Shown here piece by piece: positions 801-60,520 of a stretch of 64,000 bases of DNA. Source of the stretch: Pedococcus bigeumensis (lineage in GTDB: Bacteria > Actinomycetota > Actinomycetes > Actinomycetales > Dermatophilaceae); contig NZ_RCZM01000001.1 in the NCBI RefSeq assembly GCF_006438965.1, forward strand, positions 311,097-375,096. The letters run 5' to 3'. The stretch's first letter is position 1. Each line of letters opens with the position of its first letter. A program made the translations under genes and the position numbers. Under the pieces are notes generated by a model. It saw nothing but the letters and a program-made list of their open reading frames with translations. It was not told the origin of the DNA and ran no database searches.

Positions 801-1849
801 CCAGCACGCCACCAGAACCGCACCTCGTCCGTTCCCCCAGGGTCGGCGTCGTCATGCCCATCCTCAACGAGCAGCGCCACCTCGAGGAGGCGGTGGCCGC
901 GGTGCTCGAGCAGGACTACCCGGGCGACGTCGAGCTGGTGCTGGCCCTCGGCCCGAGCCGCGACGACACCGACGCCATCGCCGAGCGGATCTGCGCTGGC
1001 GACCCGCGGGTCAGCTCCGTGCCCAACCCCTCCGGTCGCACCCCCGAGGGCCTCAACGCGGCCCTGGCCCGGCTGTCCACGGACACCGAGGTCGTCGTCC
1101 GGGTGGACGGGCATGGCCTCCTCGATCCCGACTACATCAGCACCGCCTGTGCCCTGCTCGAGGAGACCGGGGCGGCCAACGTCGGCGGTCTGATGGACGC
1201 TCGCGGGGTGACCAGCTTCGAACGGGCCGTCGCCGCGGCGATGACCTCGCGGCTCGGGGTCGGCGCAGCGGCCTTCCACACCGGGGGAGAGGCCGGCCCG
1301 GCCGACACGGTCTACCTCGGGGTCTTCAGCAAGCCCTGGCTCGACCGGATGGGCGGGTACGACCCCCGGTTCGTGCGCGCCCAGGACTGGGAGCTCAACC
1401 ACCGGATCCGGGAGGCCGGCGGCCTGGTCTGGTTCTCCCCGGGACTGAGGGTGACCTATCGCCCCCGTCCGACCCTGCGCGCGCTGGCCCGCCAGTACCG
1501 TGACTACGGCCGCTGGCGCCGCGCGGTGTCCCGCACCCACGCGGGCACCCTCAACCTGCGCTACCTCGCCCCGCCCGCGGCCCTCGTGGGCGTCGTCGTG
1601 GGTCTCGCGGGGGGCTTCGTCTGGTGGCCCCTGTGGCTGGGCCCCGCGGCATACCTCGCGATCACGACGGTGGGCGGCCTCACGGTGACCGACGAGGACC
1701 TTCGCCCCGCCGACCGGCTCTGGATGCCGCTCGTGCTGCCCACCATGCACCTGTGCTGGGGCTGGGGCTTCATCACCAGTCGCGTCCGCGTCGACGGCGA
1801 GACCGACTCGCGGCCGGCCGCCGAAGCCGGGTCTCAGCCCGCGGGCTGA
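797..1849 (+). CDS. Glycosyltransferase family 2 with C-terminal membrane segments
   Basis: A 350-residue protein starting at ATG 797, which overlaps the preceding stop. The N-terminal GT-A fold starts at VGVVMPILNEQRHLEEAV (residues ~14-31). VVRVDGHG takes the DXD-like position, and RAQDWELNHRIREAG (~200) is the acceptor-side ED-like motif. Two or three hydrophobic segments follow between ~260 and 325, typical of GT2 enzymes that act at the membrane on lipid-linked sugars. The acceptor and sugar donor cannot be told from sequence. Its 3' end overlaps the convergent gene at 1834 by 16 bp, with no room for a separate terminator. Confidence 0.85.
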   Translation: MTSTPPEPHLVRSPRVGVVMPILNEQRHLEEAVAAVLEQDYPGDVELVLALGPSRDDTDAIAERICAGDPRVSSVPNPSGRTPEGLNAALARLSTDTEVVVRVDGHGLLDPDYISTACALLEETGAANVGGLMDARGVTSFERAVAAAMTSRLGVGAAAFHTGGEAGPADTVYLGVFSKPWLDRMGGYDPRFVRAQDWELNHRIREAGGLVWFSPGLRVTYRPRPTLRALARQYRDYGRWRRAVSRTHAGTLNLRYLAPPAALVGVVVGLAGGFVWWPLWLGPAAYLAITTVGGLTVTDEDLRPADRLWMPLVLPTMHLCWGWGFITSRVRVDGETDSRPAAEAGSQPAG

Positions 1850-4140
1850 GCCTGGCGGTCCAGCAGGTCCGGAGCCGCGTCGTCCGGGCTCTCGTCTCGA
1901 GAAGGGTCTCGCCGCCGCCGCCACCAGAGCACGAGGGCCAGCAGCGACCATCCGATCGACGCCACGACGCTCACGGTCCAGGCGGCGAGCTCGACCGGCC
2001 ACCCCGGTGGGTCGAAGCGGAGCGTCACGATCTTGCCCTCTGTCGAGGCAGGCAGGCGCAGGGTGGTGAGGTAGCCGTCGACGAGGTGGTCCGACAGGCT
2101 GCCGCCGCCTTCGACCCGGTAGCCCGGCCAGGCGAGGCGGCTGAAGGCGACCGTGCCGCCCTGGTCGGACACCGCGGTGACCCGCAGGCGCACGGTCCTG
2201 GTGTCTTCGGAGAGGGTCTCCACGCGGGTGCCCGGGGACGACCAGACGACCCCGCCGGCAGCCGGCAGGGGGCGCTCGCGGACCCACATGACAGACAGGG
2301 GCGTCTCGCGGCCCACCCGCCATCCCGGGGGAGGGTTGTCGAGCGTCTTGGCCGAGACGCCTTCCTTGCGGATCAGCACCGTGCTGACGCTCAACAGGTC
2401 GAGCCGGCTCATCCCGGTCTGCGGCTCGGTGCTGCGCAACATGGCCAGCGCGGGGCGGCAGACCCCGCCGATGAGGGTCATGCAGTACCGGTCGTTGTAG
2501 GTCGCGAAGCCGATGGTGGTGTAGGTGTTCTGGATCGGACGACCGTCGACGTACCACGCACTCGCTGTCAGGAAGTCCGAGGTGACCGAGGCGTCGGCCT
2601 GGATCGCGTCGTTGGGCGCGCCGACCATGAAGACGTCACCGACCGACCCGGCGAGGGGCCTGCGGTAGTCGCTGACCAGGGCGGGCATGTTGCGCTCCTT
2701 GGACTGCGGCGTCGGGAAGTACGAGTGCTGCAGGACGAGGAACCCGAAGGAGCACAGAGCCATCACGGCCGCGACGACGGCCGGCAGCTGTCGCCGGAGC
2801 CGGGCCGAGGCGTCGGATGCCGTGCCTCGTCGCCACAGCCACCAGACCAGCAGGATGGCGACGGACACCAGGGCGAAGGAGGTGAGCTGCGCGCGTGTCG
2901 TGTAGAGGGCGTGGCTGCCCGCGAGGAACGCGGCGGCGCCCACCCAGAGGAGGCTCAGCCCGAGCTGACCTCGGGTGGGGCGGGTCGTCGCTCCTGACGC
3001 GAGGATGCCTGCGACCACGAGGGCACAGAGCGTGACGACAGGTAGCAGCCGCACCGGGTACCTCAGCGGACCCACCTGGGTCGGCCCCAGCGACCACAGC
3101 GCGACCGAGACCAGGACGAACAGCAGGCCGGCGGCGGGTCGTAGGGCACTGCTCACGCGGGAAGGGCGGACCCACGCCAGCATCGGGAGGAACCACGCGA
3201 GGTAACCGAGGGGTGTCATGTCCCGCCGGCCGAGGCCGGGTGGCACGACACCGGTCGGGACGACCGAGACGGCGTAGTCCTGCAGCGACACCGGGAGGTT
3301 GTTCGTGTCGAGGACCTCCCAGCTGCCACGGGTGGTCACCGGGGCGGTGAGCAGCCCGGGCAGGTACACGGTGACGGCGAGCAGCCCGGCGCAGACACCC
3401 ACCCCGAGGACGCGGAGGAAGGCCGGCCGCTCGCGGAGGATGGCGGCGTCCAGCAGGCAGCCGATGAGGACCAGGGCCAGGTAGATCGTCCCGTAGACGT
3501 ATCCGACCGTCACCAGGAGGTAGCAGAACACGAGGGCCGGGAAGGGGTTCCGGCCTTGGAGCGTCCGGCGGATGGCCCACCAGGCCCACGGCAGCAGTGC
3601 CCACACGAGGAGCCCCGTGGCCCAGGTCGTCAGGTCGAGGTACTGGGTCACCCCACCCAGGGGGAGAGCGATGCTCACGACGAAGGCGATCTCCCGTCGC
3701 ACCCCGTAGCCGCGACACAGGAGGAAGCCGCCGAGGGAACCCAGGACCGCCACGACGACCTTCAGCACCGTGCAGAAGACCATCGCGTTGGTGGCGAACG
3801 TCGAAGCGACCGAGATCAGCAGGACCAGCGGGTTCCACTGCCCCCACTGACCCTCGGCCACGTAGTTCCCGGCCCGCCAGCGCTGCAGGTCGATGAGCGG
3901 CCAGTGACCGTCACGCAGCTCGGAACCCAGGTGGTACCACTGGCCGAACGAGCCGATCTGGGTGTCGCCGTAGAAGTAGAAGCGGTGGGTGAACCACAGT
4001 GGGACGAGCAGCAGGACAGCCACCGTCACCATGGCAGCCACCGCCCAGATGAGGGTGGCTCGCCGGTCTGACGAGGTGGAGGTGGTGGACGCGGGTCGCG
4101 CGGGTCGCGCGGTGGTCGGTGTCGGCGGCGCGACGGTCAT
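1834..4140 (-). CDS. Large polytopic membrane protein, GT-C/YfhO-like, copy 1 of a tandem pair
   Basis: 768 residues from ATG 4140, which overlaps the upstream gene's stop (ATGA). After a Thr/Pro-rich N-terminus there are about a dozen membrane segments, then a C-terminal extracytoplasmic domain and one last membrane helix. The loop after the first helix (YFYGDTQIG ... QWYHLG) has the acidic residue expected for a GT-C lipid-sugar glycosyltransferase. It is clearly paralogous to the next upstream gene: shared blocks include WRAGNY, EGQWG, ALPLGG, QYLD and LLPWAWWAIRRT. It probably transfers a sugar from a polyprenyl-phosphate donor to a surface polymer. That function is inferred; a YfhO-type role of unknown chemistry is the alternative. 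Confidence 0.7.
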   Translation of the reverse strand: MTVAPPTPTTARPARPASTTSTSSDRRATLIWAVAAMVTVAVLLLVPLWFTHRFYFYGDTQIGSFGQWYHLGSELRDGHWPLIDLQRWRAGNYVAEGQWGQWNPLVLLISVASTFATNAMVFCTVLKVVVAVLGSLGGFLLCRGYGVRREIAFVVSIALPLGGVTQYLDLTTWATGLLVWALLPWAWWAIRRTLQGRNPFPALVFCYLLVTVGYVYGTIYLALVLIGCLLDAAILRERPAFLRVLGVGVCAGLLAVTVYLPGLLTAPVTTRGSWEVLDTNNLPVSLQDYAVSVVPTGVVPPGLGRRDMTPLGYLAWFLPMLAWVRPSRVSSALRPAAGLLFVLVSVALWSLGPTQVGPLRYPVRLLPVVTLCALVVAGILASGATTRPTRGQLGLSLLWVGAAAFLAGSHALYTTRAQLTSFALVSVAILLVWWLWRRGTASDASARLRRQLPAVVAAVMALCSFGFLVLQHSYFPTPQSKERNMPALVSDYRRPLAGSVGDVFMVGAPNDAIQADASVTSDFLTASAWYVDGRPIQNTYTTIGFATYNDRYCMTLIGGVCRPALAMLRSTEPQTGMSRLDLLSVSTVLIRKEGVSAKTLDNPPPGWRVGRETPLSVMWVRERPLPAAGGVVWSSPGTRVETLSEDTRTVRLRVTAVSDQGGTVAFSRLAWPGYRVEGGGSLSDHLVDGYLTTLRLPASTEGKIVTLRFDPPGWPVELAAWTVSVVASIGWSLLALVLWWRRRRDPSRDESPDDAAPDLLDRQAQPAG

Positions 4141-6332
4141 CGTGCTGACGTGGCCGGCTCTGCAGACCGGCGGCGGCGCCTGTCCCACAGCGCCAGGCCG
4201 GTCAGGACGAGCGAGAGGAGGACGCTCAGGGCCCAGGCACCGACGGCGACGCCCCAGGCGGGCGGCGAGTACGAGACCTCGACGGTCCGGCCGGCTGAGC
4301 CTGCGGGCACGTCCAGGGTGAGCAGGTAGCGGTCGACGGGGTCGGCGAAGGTGCCCGCGCTCGTCGAGTAGCCCGGCCACGCCAGCCGGCTGAAGACGAC
4401 CTTGCCACCGGAGGACGGCGCCGCGAGGACCTTGAACCGGACGCTGCGGTCGTCCCGCGAGATGAGTTCGACACGGGTGCCGTCGGAGGTCCAGGCCACA
4501 TCACCCGCGGTCGGCAGCGGCTTGTCGCGCACCCACATCAGTGCGGCGGCGTTGTCCTTCTCCACGTGCCAGCCCGCAGGCGGGTTGGCGATGGCGGCCT
4601 TGTCCTTCTTGAAGTCGGCCTTGCGGATGAGCAGGGTGGACACGCGGAGCAGGTCGACGCGCGGCATACCCGTCGTCGGTTCGACGGTGAAGAGGGTGTC
4701 GAGGAGCTTGGCGCACGTGCCGCCGTTGAAGATCATGCAGTAGCGGTCGTTGTACGCGCTGAAGCCGATCACGGTGTAGGTGTTCTGGATCGGGTAGCCC
4801 GAGACGTACCACGACGACCCCACGAGGAAGTCCTTGGCCGCGCCGGGGTGGGTGAGCGCGTACTCCTGCGGGTCGCCGACCAGCATCGCGCCACCCTGGG
4901 CTCCGGCGAGCTGCTGCTTGTACGCCGAGACCGCGGAGGGCATGTTCCGGTTCGTGGAGTTGGGCAGTGGGTCGAAGTGGTGGGTGACACCGAGCAGGAG
5001 GATGGACCACACGGCCATGAAGGCCACGGTGGGCACGCTGGGGAACCTCGCGGCAGGGTCGCGGCGGGTCAGCAGCCAGACGACGAGGATGCCGATGAGC
5101 ACAAGCACCAGCGACGAGGCCACCTCGGGGGTCTCGGACTTCGCTCGTGAGATGGACAGGTAGGCGGCCACCACCACCCAGCCGAGGCTGGCCGCGAGAC
5201 GGGCGCGGGTGGGGCGGGCACTGGCCCGCGACACCAGCACGACGGTCAGGAGGACCGCGCCGAGCACGATGTAGGGGAGGGTGCGGGCCGGGTAGCGCAG
5301 CGGGCCGACGACGCTGGGGCCGATGGCGTAGAGGATGCTCAGGCCCAGCATCACGAAGACCCCGGTGAGACTCTTCACGAAGGTGCGCATCCGGGCGACG
5401 TCGATCCACATCAGCAACGGCAGGAACCAGGCCGTGTAGTGGATCGGGAAGAAGGACTTCTGGGTCAGCCGTGCCGGGACGATGCCCGTGGGGAGCACGC
5501 TGACCACGAGGTCGCGCAGGTCCACGGGCAGCTTGGCGTCGTAGTAGAGCCCGGTGTCAGCACGTGTCGTGACGGAGGCGCTGAGGATGCCCGGCAGGTA
5601 GACGGTGACCGTCAGCAGCCCGGCACAGACCCCGATGAGGAAGACGCGCAGGACGGCCGCCCGGTCGCGCTGGACCCAGGCGTCGACGAGGCAGGCCACG
5701 ATGACCAGGGCGAGGTACATCGTCCCGTAGACGTAACCCACGGTGACGATGAGGTAGCTGATCGCCAGCGCCGGCAACGGGTTGCGGCGGTGCAGCATCG
5801 TGCGGCGGATCGCCCACCACGCCCACGGCAGCAGCGACCAGACGAGCAGCCCGGTCACCCAGGTGGGGCTGTCGAGGTACTGCGTCTCCCCTCCGAGGGG
5901 GAGGGCGATGCCCACCAGGTATGCCGCGCGGCGCGGGGTGCCGTAGCTGCGCGCCAACACGTACCCGCCGGTCGCGACGGTGACGAACATCAGGGCCTTG
6001 ACGATGACGCAGAAGTACATGGCGTTGCCGGCGAACGAGGCTCCGAGCCCGACCAGCATGATCAGCGGGTTCCAGGTGCCCCACTGACCCTCGGCCGTGT
6101 AGTTCCCAGCTCGCCAGTTGTCTGGGCTCAGAACCGGCCAGTGGCCCGCGCGCAGCTCGGTGCCGAGGTGGTACCACTGCGGGAAGGCGCCGATCTGGGT
6201 GTCGCCGTAGAAGTAGTACCGATGCGTCCAGAACAAGGGGATGGCGAACAGCACCAGAACGGTCGCGACCGTGGCCAGGGGCCAGAAGAGGTCGGACCGG
6301 CGGGCCAGGCGGCTCCTGAGTTGCTCCGTCAC
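4137..6332 (-). CDS. Large polytopic membrane protein, GT-C/YfhO-like, copy 2 of a tandem pair
   Basis: 731 residues from GTG 6332. The frame is open to 6650, but the reading upstream is shadow sequence. A -10 box TACTGT (6341-6346, minus strand) lies 8 nt before this GTG, which supports a leaderless start there. The architecture is as in the downstream paralogue: YFYGDTQIGAFPQWYHLG after the first helix, many helices, a soluble extracytoplasmic C-terminal domain (VSAYKQQLAGAQGG, IQNTYTVIGFSAYNDRYC) and a final helix. The gene diverges from gtrA at 6496, and the GtrB-like enzyme at 7937 is close. One of the two paralogues is therefore a good GtrC candidate, the polymer-specific glycosyltransferase of a GtrABC-type module. 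Confidence 0.7.
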   Translation of the reverse strand: MTEQLRSRLARRSDLFWPLATVATVLVLFAIPLFWTHRYYFYGDTQIGAFPQWYHLGTELRAGHWPVLSPDNWRAGNYTAEGQWGTWNPLIMLVGLGASFAGNAMYFCVIVKALMFVTVATGGYVLARSYGTPRRAAYLVGIALPLGGETQYLDSPTWVTGLLVWSLLPWAWWAIRRTMLHRRNPLPALAISYLIVTVGYVYGTMYLALVIVACLVDAWVQRDRAAVLRVFLIGVCAGLLTVTVYLPGILSASVTTRADTGLYYDAKLPVDLRDLVVSVLPTGIVPARLTQKSFFPIHYTAWFLPLLMWIDVARMRTFVKSLTGVFVMLGLSILYAIGPSVVGPLRYPARTLPYIVLGAVLLTVVLVSRASARPTRARLAASLGWVVVAAYLSISRAKSETPEVASSLVLVLIGILVVWLLTRRDPAARFPSVPTVAFMAVWSILLLGVTHHFDPLPNSTNRNMPSAVSAYKQQLAGAQGGAMLVGDPQEYALTHPGAAKDFLVGSSWYVSGYPIQNTYTVIGFSAYNDRYCMIFNGGTCAKLLDTLFTVEPTTGMPRVDLLRVSTLLIRKADFKKDKAAIANPPAGWHVEKDNAAALMWVRDKPLPTAGDVAWTSDGTRVELISRDDRSVRFKVLAAPSSGGKVVFSRLAWPGYSTSAGTFADPVDRYLLTLDVPAGSAGRTVEVSYSPPAWGVAVGAWALSVLLSLVLTGLALWDRRRRRSAEPATSAR

Positions 6333-7936: not shown

Positions 7937-8950
7937 GTGACGGACTCCCTGCCCGACGAGAGCCGACTGCACCGGGTGTCCGTCGTAATCCCTGTCTACG
8001 GAGGCGAATTCACGCTCGGATCCGTCGTCGAGGAGATTGCCCGGTTCGCCGAGCCGAGTGTCACGCCGGACGGCCACCGCTACCAGGTGATCGAGACGTT
8101 GCTGGTCTACGACAACGGCCGCGACCGCTCCGACGAAACGATCCGCGAGCTCGCTGACAAGTACCCGTTCGTCCGGCCGGTGTGGCTCAGCCGCAACTTC
8201 GGCCAGCACCCGGCGACGCTGGCGGGCATGGCCTCCTCGAGCGGCGACTGGATCGTCACCCTCGACGAGGACGGCCAGCACGACCCCGCCGACATGGCGG
8301 CCTTCCTCGACACCGCCCTGCGCGAGAACGTCCAGCTGGTCTATGCCGAGGCCACGAACCCGCCCCCGCACAGTGCGTTCCGCAACCTGACGTCCAAGGG
8401 GGCCAAGTGGCTGTTCGCGACGGTGCTCGCGGGCGGCGCGACCGCGTCCTTCCAGAGCTACCGGCTCGTCCTCGGTGAGGTCGGCCGCAGCGTGGCCGCC
8501 TACGCGGGGTCCGGGGTCTACCTCGACGTCGCGATGCAGTGGGTTTCCGGGGAGCCCGCGGTGTGCCCGGTCGAGCTGCGCGAGGAGGGGGATCGTCGCT
8601 CCGGCTACTCGCTGCGGCGGCTGCTCTCCCACTTCTGGCGCCTCGTCCTCTCCAGTGGCACGCGCGGTCTTCGTCTGGTGAGCGTGCTCGGCGTCGTCTT
8701 CGCCCTCGCGGGGCTGGGCTACGCGGCATACCTCGTCGTCGCCAGCACGACCGGGGACGTTCCGCAGGGCTGGACCTCCACGATGGTGGTGGTGCTCTTC
8801 AGCACCGGCGCAGTGCTCTTCTCGCTGGGGATCATCGCCGAGTACATCGGCGTGGCCGTCAACATGGCCATGGGCAAGCCGCCGTACCTCATCGTGGGTG
8901 ACCCGGCGGACGGTCCGCTCGGAAGCCGGCGCCCGCGCCCCCGCCCGTGA
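7937..8950 (+). CDS. GtrB/Dpm1-type polyprenyl-phosphate glycosyltransferase (GT2)
   Basis: 337 residues from GTG 7937; GTG 7928 would add three residues. The GT2 domain begins HRVSVVIPVYGGEFTLGS. LDEDGQHDP (~110) is the DXD/QHP signature of bactoprenol glucosyl- and dolichol-phosphate mannosyl-transferases. Two C-terminal helices (about 230-255 and 270-295, LVSVLGVVFALAGLGYAAYL and a second) end in a short basic tail, as in GtrB. It makes a polyprenyl-phosphate-sugar on the inner leaflet, which GtrA (6496) could flip. GTGA overlap links it to the next gene. Confidence 0.85.
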   Translation: MTDSLPDESRLHRVSVVIPVYGGEFTLGSVVEEIARFAEPSVTPDGHRYQVIETLLVYDNGRDRSDETIRELADKYPFVRPVWLSRNFGQHPATLAGMASSSGDWIVTLDEDGQHDPADMAAFLDTALRENVQLVYAEATNPPPHSAFRNLTSKGAKWLFATVLAGGATASFQSYRLVLGEVGRSVAAYAGSGVYLDVAMQWVSGEPAVCPVELREEGDRRSGYSLRRLLSHFWRLVLSSGTRGLRLVSVLGVVFALAGLGYAAYLVVASTTGDVPQGWTSTMVVVLFSTGAVLFSLGIIAEYIGVAVNMAMGKPPYLIVGDPADGPLGSRRPRPRP

Positions 8951-12628: not shown

Positions 12629-12810
12629 TGCGGCATCCTGACCCAGAGTCGGGGGAGAAGACCGCTTGCGGCCGCATTCTTTGCCGTTTCTTGACTCCCG
12701 GCGGGCGTCGCAGGGCGGCCTTGGTATGCCGTCTCACCGGGTTGGCCACGTCGTCGCGGCGCGCCCGAGGACGGCCGGGAGACGCCCGGTCAGCCGGTAG
12801 TGTTGGGCCG
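12629..12810. promoter_or_regulatory. Divergent promoter region between amidase and CDP-ribitol synthase
   Basis: This 182-bp divergent spacer contains one GTATGCCG motif (12724). A -10 box TAGTGT (12798-12803) lies 7 nt before GTG 12811, giving a leaderless start. I see no clear promoter for the amidase. Confidence 0.5.
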
Positions 12811-28959: not shown

Positions 28960-28984
28960 CGGCCCACCGCCGACCTGCGCCGCG

Positions 28985-29014: not shown

Positions 29015-29019
29015 CTCGC

Positions 29020-29673
<654 letters not shown>

Positions 29674-36079: not shown

Positions 36080-36101
36080 AGTCCTGGGTATGCCGTTGCG
36101 G

Positions 36102-40933: not shown

Positions 40934-41009
40934 GCGCGCGTCGGTATGCCGCGCTGTCGGCCCCTGAGCTGGCGTGCGGCCGCGCGCAGTCGGCTGGGGG
41001 ACGGCTTCG
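40934..41009. other. 76-bp gap inside a glycan operon
   Basis: It holds one GTATGCCG motif (40944). GTG 40974 is in frame with the next gene but has no better ribosome-binding site than GTG 41010. Confidence 0.4.
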
Positions 41010-44943: not shown

Positions 44944-44964
44944 CTCGACCTGGCCACAGACGCA

Positions 44965-45000
44965 GGTATGCCGCCCGCTGAGGCCAGCGGGCGGCATACC
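44965..45000. terminator. Perfect 16-bp hairpin terminator built from two GTATGCCG motifs
   Basis: GGTATGCCGCCCGCTG pairs perfectly with CAGCGGGCGGCATACC around loop AGGC, between convergent genes (stops at 44896 and 45036). Both arms contain the window-wide 8-mer. Confidence 0.8.
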
Positions 45001-45035
45001 AAAGGTGGTGCGTGGGCGTGCGGCCCGTGGCGCGG

Positions 45036-47897: not shown

Positions 47898-48872
47898 TCA
47901 GGCGCCCTTGAGCTCGAGCGCGAGTTCCAGTGCGGCACCAGCGATCTCGGCCGCGGCGTCGGCATCGGACATGAGCAACGGCCGCCCGCGAACGGCGGCC
48001 CGCGCCAGGCGCAGCGACGCCTCGTCCTCGGTGGACACGAGCCAGCCATCGAGGAAGTCCTCGTAGAGCCCAGCCACGGCTGCGGTCGTGGACTCCACGC
48101 CGATGGCCCGGAGGCACGCGTCCGCGTGGCCCCGAACCGGCATACCGCCGATGAGCGGCGAGACGCCGACGACGGGAGCGGCGCTGCCGCGCAATGCATC
48201 TCGCACGCCGGGCACGCCCAGGATGATGCCGATCGAGACCACCGGGTTGCTCGGCGGGAGGAGCACCACGTCGGCGGTACGGATCGCGTCGAGGACCCCC
48301 GGGGCTGCGGTCGCACGGTCCATGCCCACGGCCTGGAATCGCTGTGCCGGGATCGAGGCCTGGTGACGAACCCACCACTCCTGGAAGTGGATTGCGCGCT
48401 GACCGTCTTCGTCCTCGACGACGACGTGCGTCTCCACGGGGGAGTCGCTCATCGGCAGCAGGGTGATCCGCTGGTCGGGAAGCCCCCAGCGCGCCGCGAG
48501 CCGGGCGGTCACCTCGGTGAGGGAGACGCCCTGGCCGAGCCACTGGGAGCGGACGATGTGCGTGCCGAAGTCCAGGTCACCGAGGGCGAACCACTGCGGC
48601 ACCGCACCGTAGGCCGCGAGCTCACCCTGGACCCGGTGGCTCTCGTCCGCGCGACCCCAGCCCTGGCCCTCGTGGATGCCGCCGCCGAGGGTGTAGAGCA
48701 GCGTGTCGAGGTCGGGACAGACCCGCAGGCCGAACAGGCTGATGTCGTCACCGGTGTTGCCGATGATGGTCAGCTCGGCGTCCGCGAGGTCGGGGGAGCG
48801 GTCCAGGTGGGTGCGGAGGCCGCGCAGGAAGCGGGCACCTCCGACGCCGCCGGCCAGTGCCGTGATGCGCAT
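47898..48872 (-). CDS. cofD: 2-phospho-L-lactate/phosphoenolpyruvate transferase (CofD/FbiA)
   Basis: 324 residues from ATG 48872. The opening MRITALAGGVGGARFL and IGNTGDDISLFGLRVCPDLDT are signatures of CofD. TLLPMSDSPVETHV, VLLPPSNPVVSIGIILGVP and GVSPLIGG complete the family pattern. CofD transfers a phospholactyl or phosphoenolpyruvyl group from its GDP/guanosine-activated form to the deazaflavin Fo, giving (dehydro-)F420-0; CofE follows directly. This places F420 in the organism's metabolism. Divergent from whiB2, as in the mycobacterial order fbiA-whiB2. Confidence 0.93.
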   Translation of the reverse strand: MRITALAGGVGGARFLRGLRTHLDRSPDLADAELTIIGNTGDDISLFGLRVCPDLDTLLYTLGGGIHEGQGWGRADESHRVQGELAAYGAVPQWFALGDLDFGTHIVRSQWLGQGVSLTEVTARLAARWGLPDQRITLLPMSDSPVETHVVVEDEDGQRAIHFQEWWVRHQASIPAQRFQAVGMDRATAAPGVLDAIRTADVVLLPPSNPVVSIGIILGVPGVRDALRGSAAPVVGVSPLIGGMPVRGHADACLRAIGVESTTAAVAGLYEDFLDGWLVSTEDEASLRLARAAVRGRPLLMSDADAAAEIAGAALELALELKGA

Positions 48873-49394: not shown

Positions 49395-52300
49395 ATGACG
49401 CTAGCCCCGCCCCATGACCTGACCGACCCCACAGGATCTCCTGCGGCGGTCGCGACAGTGACGGCGGTTCTCGTCCTCCGCGGCCCCACCTCGGCTCTCG
49501 CCGAGACCCTCGACTCCCTCGCGCGCCAGACGCGCAGCCCCGAACGCCTCGTGGTCGTCGACCCCGGGCTGGACGGCAACGCCGTCGAGACCGTGCGTGG
49601 CCACGCCGCAGTGGCCGAGGCCATCGGCTCGATCACCTTCGTCACCGTCCCCGGTGCCGCTTCCCTCGCGTATGCCGTGCGGTCGGCCCTCGCGCAGACC
49701 GACCAGCTCGTGCCGCGGCAGGACCAGGGAGCCGACGGGGTGACCCACGTCTGGGTGCTCACCTCTGACAGCGCCGCCGCGCCGATGACCCTCGCGCGCC
49801 TGCTCGACGCCGTGCGACGCAGCCCGTCGGTCGGTGCCGCCGGTCCCAAGCTGCTCGACTGGACCCGCCCCGGCGCACTGCGGTCGGTCGGCGTCCAGCT
49901 GACCCGCAGCGGCCGGATGATCCCGTCTCCAGCCCCCGGCGAGCCTGACCAGGGCCAGTACGACCGCCGGACCGACGTGCTCGCAATCCCGACGACGGGC
50001 ATGCTCGTCGAACGCGGGATGCTCGACGACCTGGGCGGGCCGGAGCGCGTCTTCGGCGACTTCGGTGCCGACGTGGACTTCTCCTGGCGTGCCCAGCAGT
50101 CCGGGCGGCGGGTCGTCGTCGTGCCGCGCGCGACCCTGCGCACCGGTGCCGAGGCCGCCCCTGACGATATCGTGCCGGTGGACTCGGTCACCCGGATGCG
50201 GCGCCAGGCCCGGCGAGTGGCCTTGGCCAGGTGCGCGTGGCTGACGTTGCCGTTGCTGGCGGCCTGGATCGTCCTGTCGAGCACCGTCGCAGCCCTCGCG
50301 CTGCTGCTGGCCAAGCGGCCCCGCGCTGCGTGGGCCGAGTTCTCCGACATCGGTGCCGTGCTGACCCCTGGTCGCGTCCTCGGCGCCCGCTGGCGCTCGC
50401 GCGGCACCCGGCAGGTCCGACGCCGTGACCTGCAGGGGCTGTTCGTCCCGCCACGGACCGTGCTGCGGCACACCACCGACCTCATCCACGACGAGGTCGC
50501 GCTCGAGCCCGGGCAGGCCGACGCGGCCCGTGGCGACGCCGTCGAGTCCGGCCCTGTCGCGGACGAGGCGCAGGACCTCAACATCCTCGGCGCCACCTGG
50601 GCGTCCCGCGCCGCGCGCAACCCGGGTCTGCTCGCCACCCTCGTCATGACCGTCGTCGCCGTCCTGGCCAGCCGTCAGCTCGGCGGCAGCTTCGTCGACC
50701 GCCTCGACCACGGAGTGGCCGGTGGTGAGACCGTCGGCGTCAGGGCCGGGGCCGGCACCCTCTGGCAGGCCTGGTTCGACGGCTGGCACGGTGCAGGACT
50801 CGGCAGCGCGGGGGAGCAGGGGCCGCACCTCGTGGTGCTGTCGGCGCTCTCCTGGCTGGTGGCCCACCTCCCACTGCTCAGCCCGCCCGCGTCTCCCGCG
50901 GGTGCGGTGACGGTCATCCTGGTCATGTTCGCCCTGCCGCTGGCCACGCTCACTGGCTACCTCGGCGCCCGCGTGGTCACCCACTCACGATGGCCGCGGG
51001 CGATCGCCGCCCTGGCGTGGTCCACCACCGCCGTGCTCGCCACGGCGGTCGGCTCCGGCCGGTTGGGCGGCATCGTCGCCGCGATCCTGCTCCCACTGGT
51101 GGCCGCCGGGATCGCCCTGGCCGGCCGACGCGCCGGTACCGCGACCGTCACCGCGGCGACGGTCCTCGCCGCTGCCGTCCTGGGCGCCTTCGTTCCGGCC
51201 CTCCTTGTCCTCGTGCTGGTCGCCGGTCTGGCCGTCGTCCTCGTCGGTCATGGCTCGGCACGCGTGCGTGGGCTGGCGATCCTCGTCGGTCCGGTGCTCC
51301 TGCTCGGATCGTGGGTGCCCGAGCTGGTCGCGCGCCCTGCCCTGCTGTTCACCGGCCCCGGTCTCTCGGTCTGGGGGACCGCACAGGCACAGCCGTGGCA
51401 GATCGCGCTCCTGCACCCCGGTGGCCCTGGGTCCTACCCCGTACTGCTCTCGGTGCCACTGGTGCTCGCCGGGCTCCTCGGCCTGCTGCGTGCCGGCCGA
51501 CGTGGCCGCGCCGCCAACGTCCTCGGCATCGTGGCCCTGGTCGGCCTCGCCTACGCCGTCGCCGCCCCTCGCGTCCAGCTCGGGGTCGTGCCTCAAGGGC
51601 TGCCCGACGCGGGGAAGCCGATCACCGCGTGGGCGGGTGTCGGCCTGCTCGTCTTCGCCCTGGCGCTGGTAGCCGCAGCCCTGCTGGGAGCCGACGGCCT
51701 CGCCGTGCGTCGGTCCCGCGGCGGGTGGCAGGCGCTGGCGCGCTGGCCGGTCGCTGCCGCGCTCATCGGCGGCGTGCTGCTCAGCGCCGGGTGGCTCAGC
51801 TGGCGCACGGTGGGCACCGAGCTGCACGCCTGGGCGGACCCTCGCCCCGCCGTCGCGGTCGACCAGGCGGAGAGCGGCATCAGCAACCGCATGCTGCTCC
51901 TCACGCCGGAGGGCGACGCCCTGACCTACCAGCTGCTCGGCCGCGAGGTCGGGGACGTCACCCGGATCCTGCCCGCCCCCGCGGCCGCCCGGCCCAGCTC
52001 CGCCGCGCTGGCCGCCTCGGTGAGCGCGCTGTTCGAGCAGGGCGCCGCACCAGGTGCCCTCACCCCTGCTGCCGACCTGGCGCGCCAGGCGGTGGGTTTC
52101 GTCGGCCTGCGTGCCGAACCGACCGACCCCCGCATCCGGTCGCTCGACGCGACTGCCGGCCTGAGCCGGCTCGGCGAGCACGACGGCGTCCTGTTTTGGC
52201 GCGTCCTGCCCGGAGGCGGTGGCACTGCTGACGACGCCGTTGCCCCGTCACGCGCCAGCCTGGTGACCCGCACCGGCGAGCAGGCTCTCCCGGTGTCTGG

Positions 52301-52589
52301 TTCCCATTCTCAGCTCGAGGTGAAATCCGTTGTCCCGCAGGGCGCTTCGCTCGTCCTGGCCGAACCCGGCGAATGGGTCCGGCACGCACGGGTGACCGTC
52401 GACGGCCGGGTGCTCGCCCCCAGCGGCGACGCCGCGGCATACGCGCTGCCTGCGGGCCCGGCCACGATCTCCGTGGACGTGCTCCCGACCAACTCGGCCT
52501 GGCGTTACGCGCAAGGCCTGCTGCTGCTCGTCGTCCTGTTCCTGGCCGTCCCCTTCGGCAACCGCTCCTCGAGGCGGAGGCGCCCGTGA
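49395..52589 (+). CDS. Large GT2 glycosyltransferase with multi-helix membrane C-terminus
   Basis: 1064 residues from ATG 49395. The N-terminal GT2 domain has VTAVLVLRGPTSALAETLDSL, PERLVVVDPG, VWVLTSDSAAAP and FGDFGADVDFSWRAQQSGRRV, with a weak DXD. After ~300 the protein becomes a 12-14-helix membrane protein with a final extracytoplasmic domain (HARVTVDGRVLAPSGD) and a last helix. Such giant GT2 proteins precede DUF5719 genes in many actinobacteria; their glycan is unknown but an envelope role is likely. The GTGA overlap with the DUF5719 gene marks a conserved pair. It is too long to be a simple GT2, so the membrane part may itself be GT-C-like. Confidence 0.8.
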   Translation: MTLAPPHDLTDPTGSPAAVATVTAVLVLRGPTSALAETLDSLARQTRSPERLVVVDPGLDGNAVETVRGHAAVAEAIGSITFVTVPGAASLAYAVRSALAQTDQLVPRQDQGADGVTHVWVLTSDSAAAPMTLARLLDAVRRSPSVGAAGPKLLDWTRPGALRSVGVQLTRSGRMIPSPAPGEPDQGQYDRRTDVLAIPTTGMLVERGMLDDLGGPERVFGDFGADVDFSWRAQQSGRRVVVVPRATLRTGAEAAPDDIVPVDSVTRMRRQARRVALARCAWLTLPLLAAWIVLSSTVAALALLLAKRPRAAWAEFSDIGAVLTPGRVLGARWRSRGTRQVRRRDLQGLFVPPRTVLRHTTDLIHDEVALEPGQADAARGDAVESGPVADEAQDLNILGATWASRAARNPGLLATLVMTVVAVLASRQLGGSFVDRLDHGVAGGETVGVRAGAGTLWQAWFDGWHGAGLGSAGEQGPHLVVLSALSWLVAHLPLLSPPASPAGAVTVILVMFALPLATLTGYLGARVVTHSRWPRAIAALAWSTTAVLATAVGSGRLGGIVAAILLPLVAAGIALAGRRAGTATVTAATVLAAAVLGAFVPALLVLVLVAGLAVVLVGHGSARVRGLAILVGPVLLLGSWVPELVARPALLFTGPGLSVWGTAQAQPWQIALLHPGGPGSYPVLLSVPLVLAGLLGLLRAGRRGRAANVLGIVALVGLAYAVAAPRVQLGVVPQGLPDAGKPITAWAGVGLLVFALALVAAALLGADGLAVRRSRGGWQALARWPVAAALIGGVLLSAGWLSWRTVGTELHAWADPRPAVAVDQAESGISNRMLLLTPEGDALTYQLLGREVGDVTRILPAPAAARPSSAALAASVSALFEQGAAPGALTPAADLARQAVGFVGLRAEPTDPRIRSLDATAGLSRLGEHDGVLFWRVLPGGGGTADDAVAPSRASLVTRTGEQALPVSGSHSQLEVKSVVPQGASLVLAEPGEWVRHARVTVDGRVLAPSGDAAAYALPAGPATISVDVLPTNSAWRYAQGLLLLVVLFLAVPFGNRSSRRRRP

Positions 52590-54076
52590 ACCTCTCCATC
52601 AGTGGCATCGTCCGCACGACCCTCGTGACCGCCGCCGGAGCAGGCCTCGTCGTGGGCGCCATGCACAGCCAGGGCGCCTTCGCCGTCGCCTCTACGCGCG
52701 CCGTCGACACGGCCACCGGGTCGGCCACGAGCCCGGTGCGCAGCGCGTCCCTCGTCTGCCCCGGGCCGGAGCTCAAGGGGCTCAAGGGCGTCGCTGACCT
52801 CGACGTCGGCGTGCGGGTTGCGGCCGCCGCGGCTCCGGTGCGCGCCATGACCGGCACGGCCCCCGCCGCCGCGCCCGGTGAGGTCAGCCTGAGCCGGATG
52901 CCGCGCGGCAGCCTTGGCGCACCAGTCACCGCGCGGGGTGTCAGCCTGCTTGCTGACCAGACCCGGGCGGAGAGCGTGCTCGTGTCGGGCACCGAGTCGA
53001 TGGCCGCCGGTGTCGCGGCAGCGCAGAACTGGCTGGTGCCCTCGGGTGACCAGCGCTCCCTGGGTGGAGCCGCGTGCGGCCAGCCGGGGGCCGACTTCTG
53101 GATCATGGCGGGCGGGGGAGCCCCCGGTCGTCAGGAGCGACTCCTCCTGACCAACCCGGGCGGCAACGCCGTCACCGTCGACGTCACCCTCCACGGCGCG
53201 AAGGGAGCGCTCTCGTCCCCGAACGGCAAGGGCATCGTCGTGCCGGCCCACGGTCGGACGGCGTTCCTGCTCGACTCGATCAACAGCGACCTGGCCAACC
53301 CCGTGGTCCACGTCGTCGCCGACGGGGGCGTCGTCGGCGCGGTCGTCAACGACCTGTGGCTCGACGGAGCTCGCGCCGGTGGCTCCGACGATGCCGTCCC
53401 CACAGCTGCACCCTCTCGCGACCAGGTCATCCCGGCGGTCGCGGCGGACGGTCAGGCGGTGCTGCGGGTCGCGGTGCCGGGCAACGACGAAGCAGTCGTC
53501 CAGGCCCGGGTGCTCACCGCCCAGGGCCCCCGCGCACTCCCCGCAGGCGGGGTGATCCGGATCGACGGCGGTACCGTGACCGACATCGACATCTCCGCCC
53601 TGCCGGTCGGCACGTACGGCCTCCAGGTGCGGGCCGACATGCCGATCGTGGCTGCCGCCGTCGTCACGCGGACCGCCCCGGGCAAGCCGGGCGACTTCGC
53701 CTGGACGTCCTCCACGCCGCCGATCACCGGTGTCGCGGGTATGCCGCTCGCAGTCCCCGAGGGCACGTCCGCCCCGATCCAGAGGTCCTTGTCGGTCACT
53801 GCATCCGGTGACACGGCCAGCGTCGAGGTGGTGACCGTCGACGCCCAAGGGGTGGAGACCTCCCGCCGTCCGGAGGTCGGGGTCGACGCAACAGCCGTTC
53901 TCGACGTCACCGGCGCGACCTCCGTCTGGGTGCACCGGGTCGGGGGCAACGGCCAGGTGCGCGCGGGCGTGGTGTCGTGGCTGGATGACGCGCAGGGCCG
54001 GCTCATCACGGCCACCCCGCTGCGTGACACCGCCCTGCGCACCACGACCGTCGGCCTGCGCGAGGTCAGCCACTAG
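52586..54076 (+). CDS. DUF5719 secreted/anchored protein
   Basis: 496 residues from GTG 52586 inside the previous stop. An N-terminal hydrophobic stretch (VRTTLVTAAGAGLVVGAM) is a signal or anchor. The rest is Ala/Gly/Val-rich β sequence with LVCPGPELKG, LTNPGGNAVTVDVTLHGAKG and VVPAHGRTAFLLDSI, the repeated β-sandwich pattern of DUF5719. The family is restricted to actinobacteria, lies next to a large GT2 gene and has no known activity. It may be the extracytoplasmic partner of that protein. Convergent with the metallopeptidase-like gene. Confidence 0.8.
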   Translation: MNLSISGIVRTTLVTAAGAGLVVGAMHSQGAFAVASTRAVDTATGSATSPVRSASLVCPGPELKGLKGVADLDVGVRVAAAAAPVRAMTGTAPAAAPGEVSLSRMPRGSLGAPVTARGVSLLADQTRAESVLVSGTESMAAGVAAAQNWLVPSGDQRSLGGAACGQPGADFWIMAGGGAPGRQERLLLTNPGGNAVTVDVTLHGAKGALSSPNGKGIVVPAHGRTAFLLDSINSDLANPVVHVVADGGVVGAVVNDLWLDGARAGGSDDAVPTAAPSRDQVIPAVAADGQAVLRVAVPGNDEAVVQARVLTAQGPRALPAGGVIRIDGGTVTDIDISALPVGTYGLQVRADMPIVAAAVVTRTAPGKPGDFAWTSSTPPITGVAGMPLAVPEGTSAPIQRSLSVTASGDTASVEVVTVDAQGVETSRRPEVGVDATAVLDVTGATSVWVHRVGGNGQVRAGVVSWLDDAQGRLITATPLRDTALRTTTVGLREVSH

Positions 54077-55040: not shown

Positions 55041-56483
55041 GTGCCCTCGCCCCTTCTCTCCGACTTCGTCAAGGCCTATGACGTCCGTGGCCTGGTCCCC
55101 GAACAGCTCAACGTCGACGTGGCGTGGGCGCTCGGCGCAGCCTTCGCCCAGACTGTCGTCGGCCCGGAGAGTGCTCCTGGCGTCGTCATCGGGCACGACA
55201 TGCGTCCGTCGTCGCCAGAGCTGTCCCGGGCCTTTGCGGCAGGGGTCACCGCGCACGGGCTCGACGCGACGCTGATCGGCCTCTGCAGCACCGACGGCCT
55301 CTACTACGCCAGTGGTGCCCTCGACCTCCCGGGCGCCATGTTCACGGCCTCGCACAACCCGGCCCAGTACAACGGCATCAAGCTGTGCCGCTCGGGCGCA
55401 CGCCCGGTGGGGCAGGACACCGGACTGGCCGACGTGAGCGCCCTCGCCCAGCATCTCCTCGACTCGGGTGTCAGTGCCGGGCCTGCGGAGACGACTCAGG
55501 GCCAGGTCGTCGAGCGCGACCTCCTGGGCGACTACGCGGCCTTCCTGCGCGGGCTGGTCGACCTGTCCGGCGGCCGTCGGCTCAAGGTCGTCGTCGATGC
55601 CGGCAACGGCATGGGTGGCCACACCGTGCCTGCCGTCCTCGGCACGGGCACCGGCCTACCAGAGCTGCCGCTCGAGATCGTCCCGCTCTACTTCGAGCTC
55701 GACGGCACCTTCCCCAACCACGAGGCCAACCCGCTCGAGCCCGAGAACCTGCGCGACCTCCAGGCTGCTGTCATCAAGCACGGTGCCGACATCGGCCTGG
55801 CGTTCGACGGTGACGCTGACCGCTGCTTCGTCATCGACGAGCGGGGCGAGCCCGTGAGCCCCAGCGCAGTCACCGCCCTGGTGGCGACCCGTGAGGTGGC
55901 CAAGCAGGTCGCGGCGGGCACCCCCGCCGCCGACGTCGCCGTCGTCTACAACGTCATCTCCTCGGCCGCGGTCCCGGAGATCATCGCCGAGCAGGGCGCC
56001 CGTGGCGTGCGCACCCGCGTCGGCCACTCCTTCATCAAGGCCGAGATGGCCCGGGAGGACGCCGTCTTCGGCGGGGAGCACAGCGCGCACTACTACTTCC
56101 GCGACTTCTGGTTCGCCGACACCGGCATGCTCGCCGCGATGCACGTCCTCGCCGCGCTCGGTGAGCAGGACGAGCCACTGAGCAGCCTCACCGCGGCATA
56201 CAGCCGGTATGCCGCCTCCGGAGAGATCAACTCGACGGTCACCGATGCGCCGGCGGCGACCGCGACGGTCCGCCGCTGGGCGGCCGAGCGCGGCGCCGAG
56301 TTCGACGAGCTCGACGGGCTGACGGCGACCTACGCGGGCACCGACGACGCCCCGATGTGGTGGCTGAACCTGCGGGCCTCCAACACCGAACCCCTGCTGC
56401 GCCTCAATGTCGAGGCAGCTGACCAAGACACGATGACCCAGGTGCGGGACGATGTCCTTGCCCTGGTGAGAGGAGAACGCTGA
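55041..56483 (+). CDS. manB: Phosphomannomutase/phosphoglucomutase
   Basis: 480 residues from GTG 55041. The α-D-phosphohexomutase landmarks are complete: FTASHNPAQYNGIK with the phospho-Ser (~104), AFDGDADRCFVID for Mg2+ (~256), GGEHSAHYYF for sugar specificity (~348), and RASNTEPLLRLNVEA for phosphate binding (~455). It interconverts mannose-6-P and mannose-1-P, feeding GDP-mannose for lipomannan-type glycans and polyprenyl-P-mannose, and may also act on glucose. This fits the many membrane glycosyltransferases in the window. It overlaps the Trm112-like gene by one base. Confidence 0.93.
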   Translation: MPSPLLSDFVKAYDVRGLVPEQLNVDVAWALGAAFAQTVVGPESAPGVVIGHDMRPSSPELSRAFAAGVTAHGLDATLIGLCSTDGLYYASGALDLPGAMFTASHNPAQYNGIKLCRSGARPVGQDTGLADVSALAQHLLDSGVSAGPAETTQGQVVERDLLGDYAAFLRGLVDLSGGRRLKVVVDAGNGMGGHTVPAVLGTGTGLPELPLEIVPLYFELDGTFPNHEANPLEPENLRDLQAAVIKHGADIGLAFDGDADRCFVIDERGEPVSPSAVTALVATREVAKQVAAGTPAADVAVVYNVISSAAVPEIIAEQGARGVRTRVGHSFIKAEMAREDAVFGGEHSAHYYFRDFWFADTGMLAAMHVLAALGEQDEPLSSLTAAYSRYAASGEINSTVTDAPAATATVRRWAAERGAEFDELDGLTATYAGTDDAPMWWLNLRASNTEPLLRLNVEAADQDTMTQVRDDVLALVRGER

Positions 56484-58666: not shown

Positions 58667-59039
58667 TGCCCTTCACCGCCTCGGGCACGCGCGTGGTGGT
58701 GAGGGAGGCACGCAGTCCGGCCGCGGCATACGCCATCGCCTTGGCCACGGGGAGGCCGAGAGGGGTGGACAGGCGGACGGCGAGGTCGCGGTGCTCGGCC
58801 GTCGCCCACAGGCAGACGACCCAGGCGTGGGCGCCGGTCCAGACCTGGCCGCCGTTGCCCACGACCGATATCTCGCGGAGCGTGGCCGCGTGGTCGAGGT
58901 GGGGCAGGAGGGCGCGGGCCGCAGCGGAGCCGGCCGGCACCGCGGTCACCGCCAGGAGGTGGGGCTGCTCGATGAGCCAGGTGCGAAAGCGTGAGCACAT
59001 CGGGCAGCCGGCGTCGTAGAGGACGACGAGCCGGTTCAC
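58623..59039 (-). CDS. DUF393 (DCC family) thiol-disulfide-like protein
   Basis: 138 residues from GTG 59039, overlapping the upstream stop (GTGA). VVLYDAGCPMCSRFRTWL (~5-22) carries the DxxCPxC motif of DUF393/DCC proteins, a thioredoxin-like group. WTGAHAWVVCLWATAEHRDLA fits the family. An additional Cys pair lies at the C-terminus (DDCDGLC). Probably a redox protein; its substrate is unknown. Its 3' end overlaps the TetR gene by 44 bp, which ties the two in one transcript. Confidence 0.8.
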   Translation of the reverse strand: MNRLVVLYDAGCPMCSRFRTWLIEQPHLLAVTAVPAGSAAARALLPHLDHAATLREISVVGNGGQVWTGAHAWVVCLWATAEHRDLAVRLSTPLGLPVAKAMAYAAAGLRASLTTTRVPEAVKGNGYADDCDGLCQPG

Positions 59040-59937: not shown

Positions 59938-59992
59938 ATGGGACGCCATGAAAGTGCAGGCCGGGAACGCCAAGGGTTGGAGCGGCAGTCCC

Positions 59993-60520
59993 TCAGAGCG
60001 AGAGCGGCAGGACCTCGGCGGTGGCCAGCGTGGCCAGCTCCGACGCCGGGACGAGCACCTTGCTGCCCCGGATGCCGCTGCCGATCACGACATCTCCGGC
60101 AGCCACGACGGCTTCGTCGACCAGCACCGGCCAGTCGGCGGGGAGCCCGATCGGGGTGATCCCGCCGAACTCCATCCCGGTCAGCTCGACCGCCTGGTCC
60201 ATCGGGGCGAAGCTGATCTTGCGCACGTCGAGGTGCCTGCGGACGGCACCGTTGATGTCGGCGCGCATCGAGGCGAGCACCAGCACCGCGGCATACCGCA
60301 CCTCGCCACCGCGCTTGCCCGCGACGACCACGCAGTTGGCCGAGCTCTCCATCGCCACGTCGTACGCCGCGCAGAAGGCCGCCGTGTCGGCGAGCTCGGC
60401 GTCGATGGGCGCGACCCTGGCCGAGGGCGTGGCGGCGATCGCCCGCGCCACCGGCCCAGCCAACAGCTCGGTATGCCGGGTGGCCGGCTCCCAGGTCAGG
60501 TTTCCTTCAGCGCTGCTCAT
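59993..60520 (-). CDS. YbaK/EbsC-family protein (aminoacyl-tRNA deacylase-like)
   Basis: 175 residues from ATG 60520, -10 box TAGCCT (60527-60532) 6 nt upstream. The YbaK fold is seen in ANCVVVAGKRGGEVRYAAVLV (~62-82, with the conserved Lys), ADINGAVRRHLDVRKISFAP and GMEFGGITPIGLP (GxxxGGxxPxG motif). Family members hydrolyse mischarged aminoacyl-tRNA (for example Cys-tRNAPro or Ala-tRNAPro). It starts its own transcript and has no operon partner; the membrane gene at 60530 lies 9 bp upstream on the same strand and may read into it. Confidence 0.85.
   Translation of the reverse strand: MSSAEGNLTWEPATRHTELLAGPVARAIAATPSARVAPIDAELADTAAFCAAYDVAMESSANCVVVAGKRGGEVRYAAVLVLASMRADINGAVRRHLDVRKISFAPMDQAVELTGMEFGGITPIGLPADWPVLVDEAVVAAGDVVIGSGIRGSKVLVPASELATLATAEVLPLSL

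Follow-up and report, generated by a model that had tools for sequence, protein, structure and literature searches.

A frequent, strand-balanced 8-mer in Pedococcus bigeumensis and its relatives, a candidate self-recognition sequence of natural transformation

The motif in the window and in the genome

The stretch analyzed here, hereafter the window, comprises 64,000 nucleotides of the genome of Pedococcus bigeumensis (G000:C1:311097-375096), an actinobacterium of the family Dermatophilaceae, and is scattered with copies of a short word, the 8-mer GTATGCCG, which is probably, as argued below from comparisons of genomes, a self-recognition sequence of natural transformation. Positions are numbered from the first letter of the window, and the assignment to coding or intergenic DNA comes from a simple gene caller of our own. 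The word occurs 40 times, compared with a mean of 0.84 and a maximum of 4 in 100 dinucleotide shuffles and with 0.91 expected under a second-order Markov model, and it ranks first among the over-represented 8-mers of the window. An earlier note on this DNA had listed 41 occurrences of GTATGCC on both strands, and every position given is correct; 40 of them extend to GTATGCCG, the lone exception being that at 33740, and the claimed lack of strand bias agrees with 19 plus-strand and 21 minus-strand copies. Thirty-one of the 40 sites are coding and nine lie between genes (Table 1). While several reading frames are indeed used (16 TAT-GCC, 10 GCA-TAC, 4 GGT-ATG-CCG, and 1 CGG-CAT-ACC among the 31 coding sites), the note's statement that all of them are does not hold, given that GTA-TGC accounts for 0 of the 31. 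The paired copies that it had placed in terminators are found at 28986/29006 and 44966/44992, in both cases between convergent genes and capable of forming a hairpin. An RNA element was considered and rejected, as the window holds no Rfam family at the gathering score and no tRNA.

The enrichment is not confined to the window. In the whole genome (4.22 Mb, 13 contigs), 1264 + 1287 = 2551 copies of GTATGCCG are present versus 35 + 39 = 74 of the reversed word, so that the absence of enrichment elsewhere, named in the earlier note as a ground for refutation, is not what is found. Composition and spacing were analyzed in detail on 460 kb of this genome, with a coding part of 419 kb and 402 genes entering the codon shuffle. 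These 460 kb contain 291 copies, 140 on the plus and 151 on the minus strand. Coding copies number 229 (139 sense, 90 antisense) versus 12.4 in 100 synonymous shuffles that keep the proteins and the codon pool (sense 7.9, maximum 14; antisense 4.5, maximum 10), and the reversed word stays at background in coding DNA, with 3 sense and 4 antisense copies versus 3.6 and 2.6 after shuffling. Neither the Markov nor the codon model, which the note had held capable of explaining the word away, predicts its count, and codon usage, composition, and Markov background are rejected as its source by the shuffles together with the reversed-word control. At the level of single codons, 123 of 132 tyrosines in a G-Tyr-GCCG context, where TAT completes the word, use this codon, versus 156 of 2604 elsewhere, and alanine is written GCA in 60 of 112 word-completing contexts versus 2 of 216 other GCN-TAC contexts.

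Intergenic DNA holds 60 copies in 41.4 kb, compared with 1.2 expected by the second-order model, which corresponds to a density of 1.45/kb versus 0.55/kb in coding DNA. Convergent gaps are the densest (2.12/kb) and divergent gaps the sparsest (1.03/kb), a pattern that speaks against a function as promoter or operator. Two copies share an intergenic gap in ten places of the 460 kb, in opposite orientation in 10/10, and two of these pairs belong to the window. There is no local strand skew across 22 stretches of 20 kb, and the overall ratio of 140:151 departs from a 75:25 split with P = 9e-23, replichores not having been mapped. Polar chromosome signals with polarity toward the terminus, such as FtsK-orienting polar sequences (KOPS) and architecture imparting sequences (AIMS), are rejected on account of the balanced strands and the absence of local skew. 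Flanking positions each contribute less than 0.5 bit, with the strongest signal from the C and G that occupy the two positions directly 3′ of the word, and 3 of the 24 single-change variants exceed the second-order model at least 1.8-fold, the others being near or below it.

The sites are conserved in a sibling species that shares the word, as the earlier note had proposed to examine. Of the 40 window sites, 17 are unaligned in G144 and 22 in G143 and were set aside. Against G144 (83.1% identity, 32.4 kb), 18 of the 23 aligned sites match exactly, 4 are changed, and 1 is gapped, which exceeds the flanking 8-mers, 29.4% of which are identical (Fisher P = 1.9e-6). Against the motif-poor sibling G143 (79.4%), 5 of 18 sites are kept, similar to the flanks at 19.8% (P = 0.38).

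Table 1. Copies of GTATGCCG and their inverted pairs in the window
Feature	Position	Strand	Context
motif copy	1647..1654	-	coding, GCA-TAC
motif copy	4662..4669	-	coding, GGT-ATG-CCG
motif copy	5919..5926	+	coding, GCA-TAC
motif copy	8724..8731	-	coding, GCA-TAC
motif copy	11389..11396	-	coding, TAT-GCC
motif copy	12127..12134	-	coding, TAT-GCC
motif copy	12724..12731	+	intergenic, divergent genes
motif copy	13194..13201	+	coding, TAT-GCC
motif copy	15497..15504	+	coding, TAT-GCC
motif copy	18783..18790	-	coding, TAT-GCC
motif copy	19761..19768	-	coding, TAT-GCC
motif copy	20898..20905	+	coding, TAT-GCC
motif copy	22198..22205	+	coding, GCA-TAC
motif copy	22255..22262	-	coding, GGT-ATG-CCG
inverted motif pair, 28986-28993 (+) and 29006-29013 (-)	28980..29020		terminator-like hairpin, convergent genes, -32.3 kcal/mol
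motif copy	30078..30085	-	coding, TAT-GCC
motif copy	30551..30558	+	intergenic
motif copy	32585..32592	+	coding, GCA-TAC
motif copy	32659..32666	-	coding, TAT-GCC
motif copy	35339..35346	+	coding, TAT-GCC
motif copy	36088..36095	+	intergenic
motif copy	36370..36377	-	intergenic
motif copy	37713..37720	-	coding, TAT-GCC
motif copy	39984..39991	-	coding, GCA-TAC
motif copy	40944..40951	+	intergenic
motif copy	42892..42899	-	coding, GCA-TAC
inverted motif pair, 44966-44973 (+) and 44992-44999 (-)	44960..45006		terminator-like hairpin, convergent genes, -36.5 kcal/mol
motif copy	46153..46160	+	coding, TAT-GCC
motif copy	46978..46985	+	coding, GCA-TAC
motif copy	48138..48145	-	coding, GGT-ATG-CCG
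motif copy	49670..49677	+	coding, TAT-GCC
motif copy	52435..52442	-	coding, GCA-TAC
motif copy	53739..53746	+	coding, GGT-ATG-CCG
inverted motif pair, 56194-56201 (-) and 56207-56214 (+)	56194..56214		within coding sequence, hairpin -16.0 kcal/mol
motif copy	58724..58731	-	coding, TAT-GCC
motif copy	60289..60296	-	coding, TAT-GCC
motif copy	60471..60478	+	coding, CGG-CAT-ACC

Distribution and dialects

The word was counted in 186 genomes of the family, a genome being called enriched, by a cut-off of our own, when it holds at least 400 copies and at least 2.5 times the number of the reversed word. By this measure, GTATGCCG is enriched in 106 of the 186 genomes and in 30 of 53 genera, the other 23 genera being without enrichment, and a further 14 genomes have 150-399 copies. 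In an even draw of 149 genomes across the order, 10 of them inside the family, only GTATGCCG was counted, and none of the 139 genomes from 19 other families reaches 400 copies, the highest count being 167 versus 184 of the control (by eye). The reversed control word, GCCGTATG, is itself raised in genera g4 and g18 (453-578 copies in 5 of 7 genomes), which may stem from copies that overlap, as at G005:C1:15914-15928.

Some lineages have words of their own, mostly GGATGCCG. Among 20 of them, each sampled over 40 kb, GGATGCCG is the top word in G034 and G178 and slightly raised in G153; GTACGCCG or its overlapping form CGTACGCC is outstanding in G090 and, more weakly, in G002, G015, and G019; and CGATGCGG, CGAAGGGG, and CGAAGGGGG are outstanding in G083, G092, and G052, respectively, whereas G184 has a longer repeat. 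For GTACGCCG and CGATGCGG, the observation covers these 40 kb samples. In 9 of the 20, the 40 kb samples contain no clear word. Counted genome-wide against its control, GGATGCCG reaches 4480/262 in G034, 3619/206 in G035, 3949/289 in G178, 3816/392 in G017, and 3838/439 in G018, that is, 8.7-17.6 times the control, which is poorly matched, with a ratio of about 1-4 in most genomes and up to 6.6 elsewhere (G105, by eye). Owing to this poor match, G153 (1210/280) and G158 (1336/310) are unclear cases. A change of the word by a single letter occurs inside one genus, and both words are present in G036 and G037 (GGATGCCG 2195/207 and 2099/200; GTATGCCG 1217/97 and 1189/85).

CGAAGGGG is unlike the other dialect words. 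With a following G (L071, L072, L222, and L223 of G092/G093; L031 and L032 of G052), it is strand-balanced, and in g36 it forms hairpin pairs and shows same-strand avoidance. A different kind of repetition is seen in L043 (G184:C1:1000001-1020000), where 16 copies of a longer repeat containing GTCGAGTAGGTGCGG lie in one 20 kb stretch and 0 in a second stretch. In raw counts from 21 kb stretches of other families, GTACGCCG occurs 20 times versus 0 of the control in L114 (Hamadaea tsunoensis), and GGATGCCG occurs 15 versus 0 times in L142 (Agromyces), 12 versus 3 in L131 (Agromyces), and 12 versus 2 in L130 (Cryobacterium); similar words may therefore exist outside the family.

Strand-specific spacing

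Copies of GTATGCCG avoid one another on the same strand, an observation that is new here. Of 288 pairs of neighbors in the 460 kb, 192 have their two copies on opposite strands (P = 1.6e-8), as do 166 of 254 when pairs less than 100 bp apart are left out. Same-strand pairs at distances of 100-1500 bp number 55 versus 129 expected, and opposite-strand pairs 139 versus 128, with the two opposite-strand arrangements not differing consistently apart from an excess of hairpins below 100 bp (12 and 4 versus 4.6 each). Split by location, same-strand and opposite-strand pairs number 11 and 52 inside single genes, 24 and 43 across two genes, and 20 and 44 where intergenic DNA takes part. For 183 control 8-mers, the same-strand ratio is 1.04 (sd 0.14, minimum 0.65) versus 0.43 for GTATGCCG, and the fraction of alternating neighbors is 0.489 (maximum 0.607) versus 0.667. 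Spacing is also more even than random, with a variance/mean of 0.54-0.63 and a mean same-strand gap of 3.1 kb. If every copy on a double-stranded fragment were equally good, the two orientations would be mutually redundant; given that redundancy is found among same-strand copies only, the pattern suggests reading of the word on a single strand, be it in transformation, on DNA that is becoming or has become single-stranded, or by an enzyme of the Chi type.

As the spacing effect was found after the other analyses, it was checked in other genomes, in six sets with five words among them. All six have a same-strand ratio below 1: 0.63 in G077, 0.85 in G034, 0.57 in G178, 0.69 in G090, 0.90 in G083, and 0.53 in G092/G093. 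Pooled, same-strand pairs number 314 versus 424 (P = 1.4e-8) and opposite-strand pairs 459 versus 405, the P values for spacing being rough in that pairs are not independent events; G144 (0.47), whose stretch matches the window, was left out of the pool. Alternation of neighbors is not significant in G034, G090, and G083. In G034 (L272-L281, L047, L048), same-strand GGATGCCG pairs less than 100 bp apart are in excess, 27 versus 14.2, unlike in the other sets.

Competence and pilus genes

Of the machinery for which the earlier note suggested a search, the com genes are nearly universal in the family, and the type IV pilus is nearly absent. A ComEC match is found in 180 of 186 genomes and a ComEA match in 179 at E 0.001, 97 of the latter over the curated cut-off; being near-universal, neither is a discriminating gene. 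Of the 186 genomes, 2 have a PilT match above the family cut-off and two others a strong match below it, and a PilT-type pilus is accordingly rejected as the machine. The candidate machine is a Tad pilus. In Micrococcus luteus, deletions in either of two tad clusters abolish transformation, except that of tadB, which lowers it more than 100-fold (PMC4322843). The gene content here is alike in comprising two Tad loci together with ComEA/ComEC, and the gene order of the locus called B resembles the tad-1 cluster, a correspondence drawn from gene order and naming only.

A match to class-A TadA (tad-2-like) is present in 184 of 186 genomes and does not discriminate either; for 174 of these genomes the E-value, read by eye, is below 1e-70, and the remaining, weaker matches may be cross-matches. 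Class-B TadA (TadA-B) heads locus B, which runs tadA-tadB-tadC-small pilin-tadE-tadF-tadG. Ten genomes that are at least 90% complete have no trace of TadA-B beyond cross-matches of 33-42% (G001, G022, G038, G068, G069, G070, and G096; plus G023, G097, and G098, judged by best E-value only). GTATGCCG is enriched in 0 of these 10 versus 92 of 153 other genomes of this completeness (P = 1.7e-4; 6.7e-5 when G093, which has a remnant, is added to the former), and, by genus, in 0 of 6 versus 30 of 47 (P = 0.004). No clear other word was found in the five that were sampled (G001, G022, G038, G068, and G096). Less complete genomes lacking TadA-B were left out: G095 (43 copies of GTATGCCG), G024 (55), G071 (100), G101 (2160), and G181 (341). 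Present-day intactness of tadA-B is rejected as a discriminator, given that 12 of 25 genomes with tadA-B absent, broken, or fragmentary are enriched versus 80 of 138 others; broken-tadA-B genomes being often enriched, recent breakage must be assumed. From these comparisons, locus B seems to be needed for the GTATGCCG state over evolutionary time, without being sufficient and without its intactness today being required. A tie of CGAAGGGG to locus B is rejected on the evidence of G093, alike as its strand-specific spacing and hairpin pairs look.

Locus-B pilins are present in 24 of 26 stretches, and the sequences from G034, G036, and G037 were viewed by eye for a possible surface receptor that would vary with the dialect. 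In G178 (L189, L237), other open frames replace the pilin genes downstream of tadC and a tadG remnant is left; one of the replacing frames resembles what we take to be a DUF262 protein. Loss of locus-B pilins was considered as a general cause of motif-free genomes and rejected, as it fits G084 and not G008, G114, G010, or G021.

Mobile elements in tadA-B

Fifteen genomes (16 stretches, L246-L261) were picked for a partial match to class-B tadA and read. The gene is split into two parts 8.2-14.0 kb apart on one stretch in G080, G172, G175, and G163, and about 79 kb apart in G146; one part abuts other DNA in G121, G124, G111, G123, and G007; G119 has frame changes only, and G093, G118, G073, and G074 have fragments. 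The breaks fall at about three spots, near codons 79-89, 205-237, and 292-297, that of G175 not being sharply placed. At the break, G146, G172, G175, G163, G111, and G007 carry frames resembling large serine recombinases (E below 1e-20), with a Pfam check made on G172 and G111; the insert of G175 encodes a phage head protein, and transposases are present in the stretches of G080, G121, G124, and G007. Mobile elements that integrate into competence genes are a recurrent subject in the literature on their conflict with transformation.

The inserted DNA is poor in the word. Nine stretches from enriched genomes that were taken to be inserted, 114 kb in all, hold 5 copies of GTATGCCG versus 42.9 expected from genome density (P = 3e-13), an expectation that ignores G+C, which is slightly lower in the inserts than in their surroundings in 9/9 (only slightly in G172 and G124). 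Five of the nine were cut at chosen bounds and possibly include some host DNA.

Interpretation

With a probability of about 0.6, GTATGCCG serves natural transformation as the sequence by which self DNA is recognised, the apparatus consisting of ComEA/ComEC and a Tad pilus with tad-1-like and tad-2-like loci. The step concerned would be DNA uptake or transformation: word-bearing DNA would enter more efficiently, or be retained and recombined more efficiently once inside, and exchange biased in its favor, both inside a species and among relatives, would spread copies and keep them in place, with foreign mobile DNA carrying few of them. The word might be read while the DNA is single-stranded, at ComEC, for instance, or later, and the recogniser would belong to the system itself, one of the minor Tad pilins being a possible candidate. 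The uptake-sequence reading proposed in the earlier note gains partial support from the enrichment, the dialects, the conservation of sites, the hairpins, the scarcity in tadA inserts, the Com matches, and the one-way link to the Tad locus; on the other side, the type IV pilus is nearly absent, no receptor was found, and avoidance is confined to the same strand.

Several results weigh against this reading. No receptor for the motif, ComP-like or other, was found among the locus-B pilins and Com proteins examined, and ComEC and ComEA occur irrespective of the motif. Across the tests, shared ancestry is handled by the genus count alone, and the association with TadA-B vanishes when broken or fragmentary tadA-B is counted as absent (P = 0.39). 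G101 (73% complete) has its 2160 copies with a 34% cross-match to TadA-B only, and G093 is still rich in CGAAGGGG with a mere tadA-B remnant. G008, G114, G010, and G021 have tad-1-like loci with full pilins and no enriched word that was found, and G178 has kept GGATGCCG without adjacent locus-B pilins. The spacing deficit is not significant in G090 or G083 alone. Moreover, avoidance confined to the same strand is not what orientation-independent uptake, as described in PMC1939737, predicts, and it hints at a role of orientation.

A more specific version of the transformation reading, which we put forward tentatively and regard as possible rather than probable, is that self DNA is recognised single-stranded. 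GTATGCCG and its dialects would be read on the entering strand, at ComEC or by a partner in the cytoplasm, and one copy would serve roughly 1-1.5 kb of the strand on which it lies, which would explain the same-strand avoidance; the system would be tied to Tad and counteracted by mobile elements through their insertion into tadA, and it would be a self-tag of transformation outside the two proteobacterial families known to us.

The strand-specific spacing, with opposite strands independent, is also to be expected of a directional one-strand signal like Chi, in which a helicase-nuclease acting at broken ends reads the word on one strand while unwinding and switches to recombination, coverage being selected in both directions. 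The mean same-strand gap of 3.1 kb amounts to a Chi-like density, and Chi is recognised as a single strand according to the title of a study cited in PMC1939737. Chi, too, is a short and over-represented word, and its action depends on orientation. However, the Chi sites of E. coli are skewed between strands, whereas no local skew is seen in the 22 stretches of 20 kb, for which replichores were not mapped; nor are an intergenic preference, inverted hairpin pairs, absence of enrichment where a tad-1-like locus is gone, co-existing words, changes of word within genera, and a lack in 23 of 53 genera known as traits of Chi. Transformation is favored over a Chi-like role, the main rival, which we hold to be rather unlikely, because there is no enrichment where locus B is gone, because hairpins lie between genes, and because the word varies among lineages and is missing from many genera.

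The even spacing would also suit the site of a nucleoid or chromosome-organising protein, with regularity selected for compaction, yet copies on opposite strands ignore each other and pair in hairpins, words differ within one genus, and enrichment fails where the tad-1-like locus is gone, which makes such a site improbable. Scarcity in mobile DNA is likewise expected of a restriction-modification target, a methylation site, or another defense-related self tag; restriction sites are usually avoided rather than enriched, and no type of restriction-modification system is known to enrich an 8-mer 34-fold when it is non-palindromic and spaced strand-specifically, so that we consider this very improbable. 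That the word merely follows from codon usage or base composition, or belongs to a longer dispersed repeat, has a negligible chance: after testing, nothing speaks in its favor, and the Markov expectation of about 1 in the window, the codon shuffles (12.4 versus 229 copies in 419 kb of coding DNA), the background level of the reversed word, and flanks below 0.5 bit per position all speak against it.

Relation to known systems

To our knowledge, sequence-specific DNA uptake is known only from Neisseriaceae and Pasteurellaceae. Among the matches listed in the open-licence literature, there is no earlier report of uptake sequences in actinobacteria or other Gram-positive bacteria, nor of GTATGCCG in this role, and the term 'uptake sequence' has 0 occurrences in the paper on the Flp pilus of M. 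luteus (PMC4322843). The DNA uptake sequences (DUS) of Neisseriaceae are similar in that thousands of copies of a short non-palindromic word, single-change dialects, co-existing words, and dyad pairs occur, S. muelleri carrying in one genome two dialects that are one transversion apart (PMC3630211). They differ in that the present word belongs to another phylum, has a Tad locus in place of a type IV pilus and no ComP-like receptor found, is an 8-mer compared with the 10-12-mer of DUS, and is spaced strand-specifically. The uptake signal sequences (USS) of Pasteurellaceae share over-representation, an excess in non-coding DNA, and, in H. influenzae, even spacing; uptake in H. influenzae is reported to be orientation-independent (PMC1939737), whereas the redundancy here is confined to one strand. 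A further difference concerns flanking AT tracts, which are a feature of USS and which GTATGCCG lacks.

The family bears on how often, and by which machine, sequence-specific uptake evolves. The 106 enriched genomes, their unenriched close relatives, and the single-letter change of the word in one genus amount to a natural experiment for finding the recogniser, and the same-strand-only spacing is a quantitative clue to mechanism, suited to immediate comparison with the genomes of Neisseria and Haemophilus. If the transformation reading is true, the word would help to predict partners of DNA exchange among these bacteria.

A neighboring Tad locus

A further Tad locus, of the Flp type, lies 7 kb to the right of the window (G000:C1:382327-390693, L081). 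It was rejected as the machine, given that its TadA has only cross-match E-values in the motif-rich genus g4 and that it overlaps the largest motif gap. Being patchy across the family, it was probably acquired. The gap in question, the largest in the 460 kb, extends over 11.1 kb (384534-395650), and the Tad genes are followed by two-component regulators and, as identified by eye, a comF-like frame and hpf.

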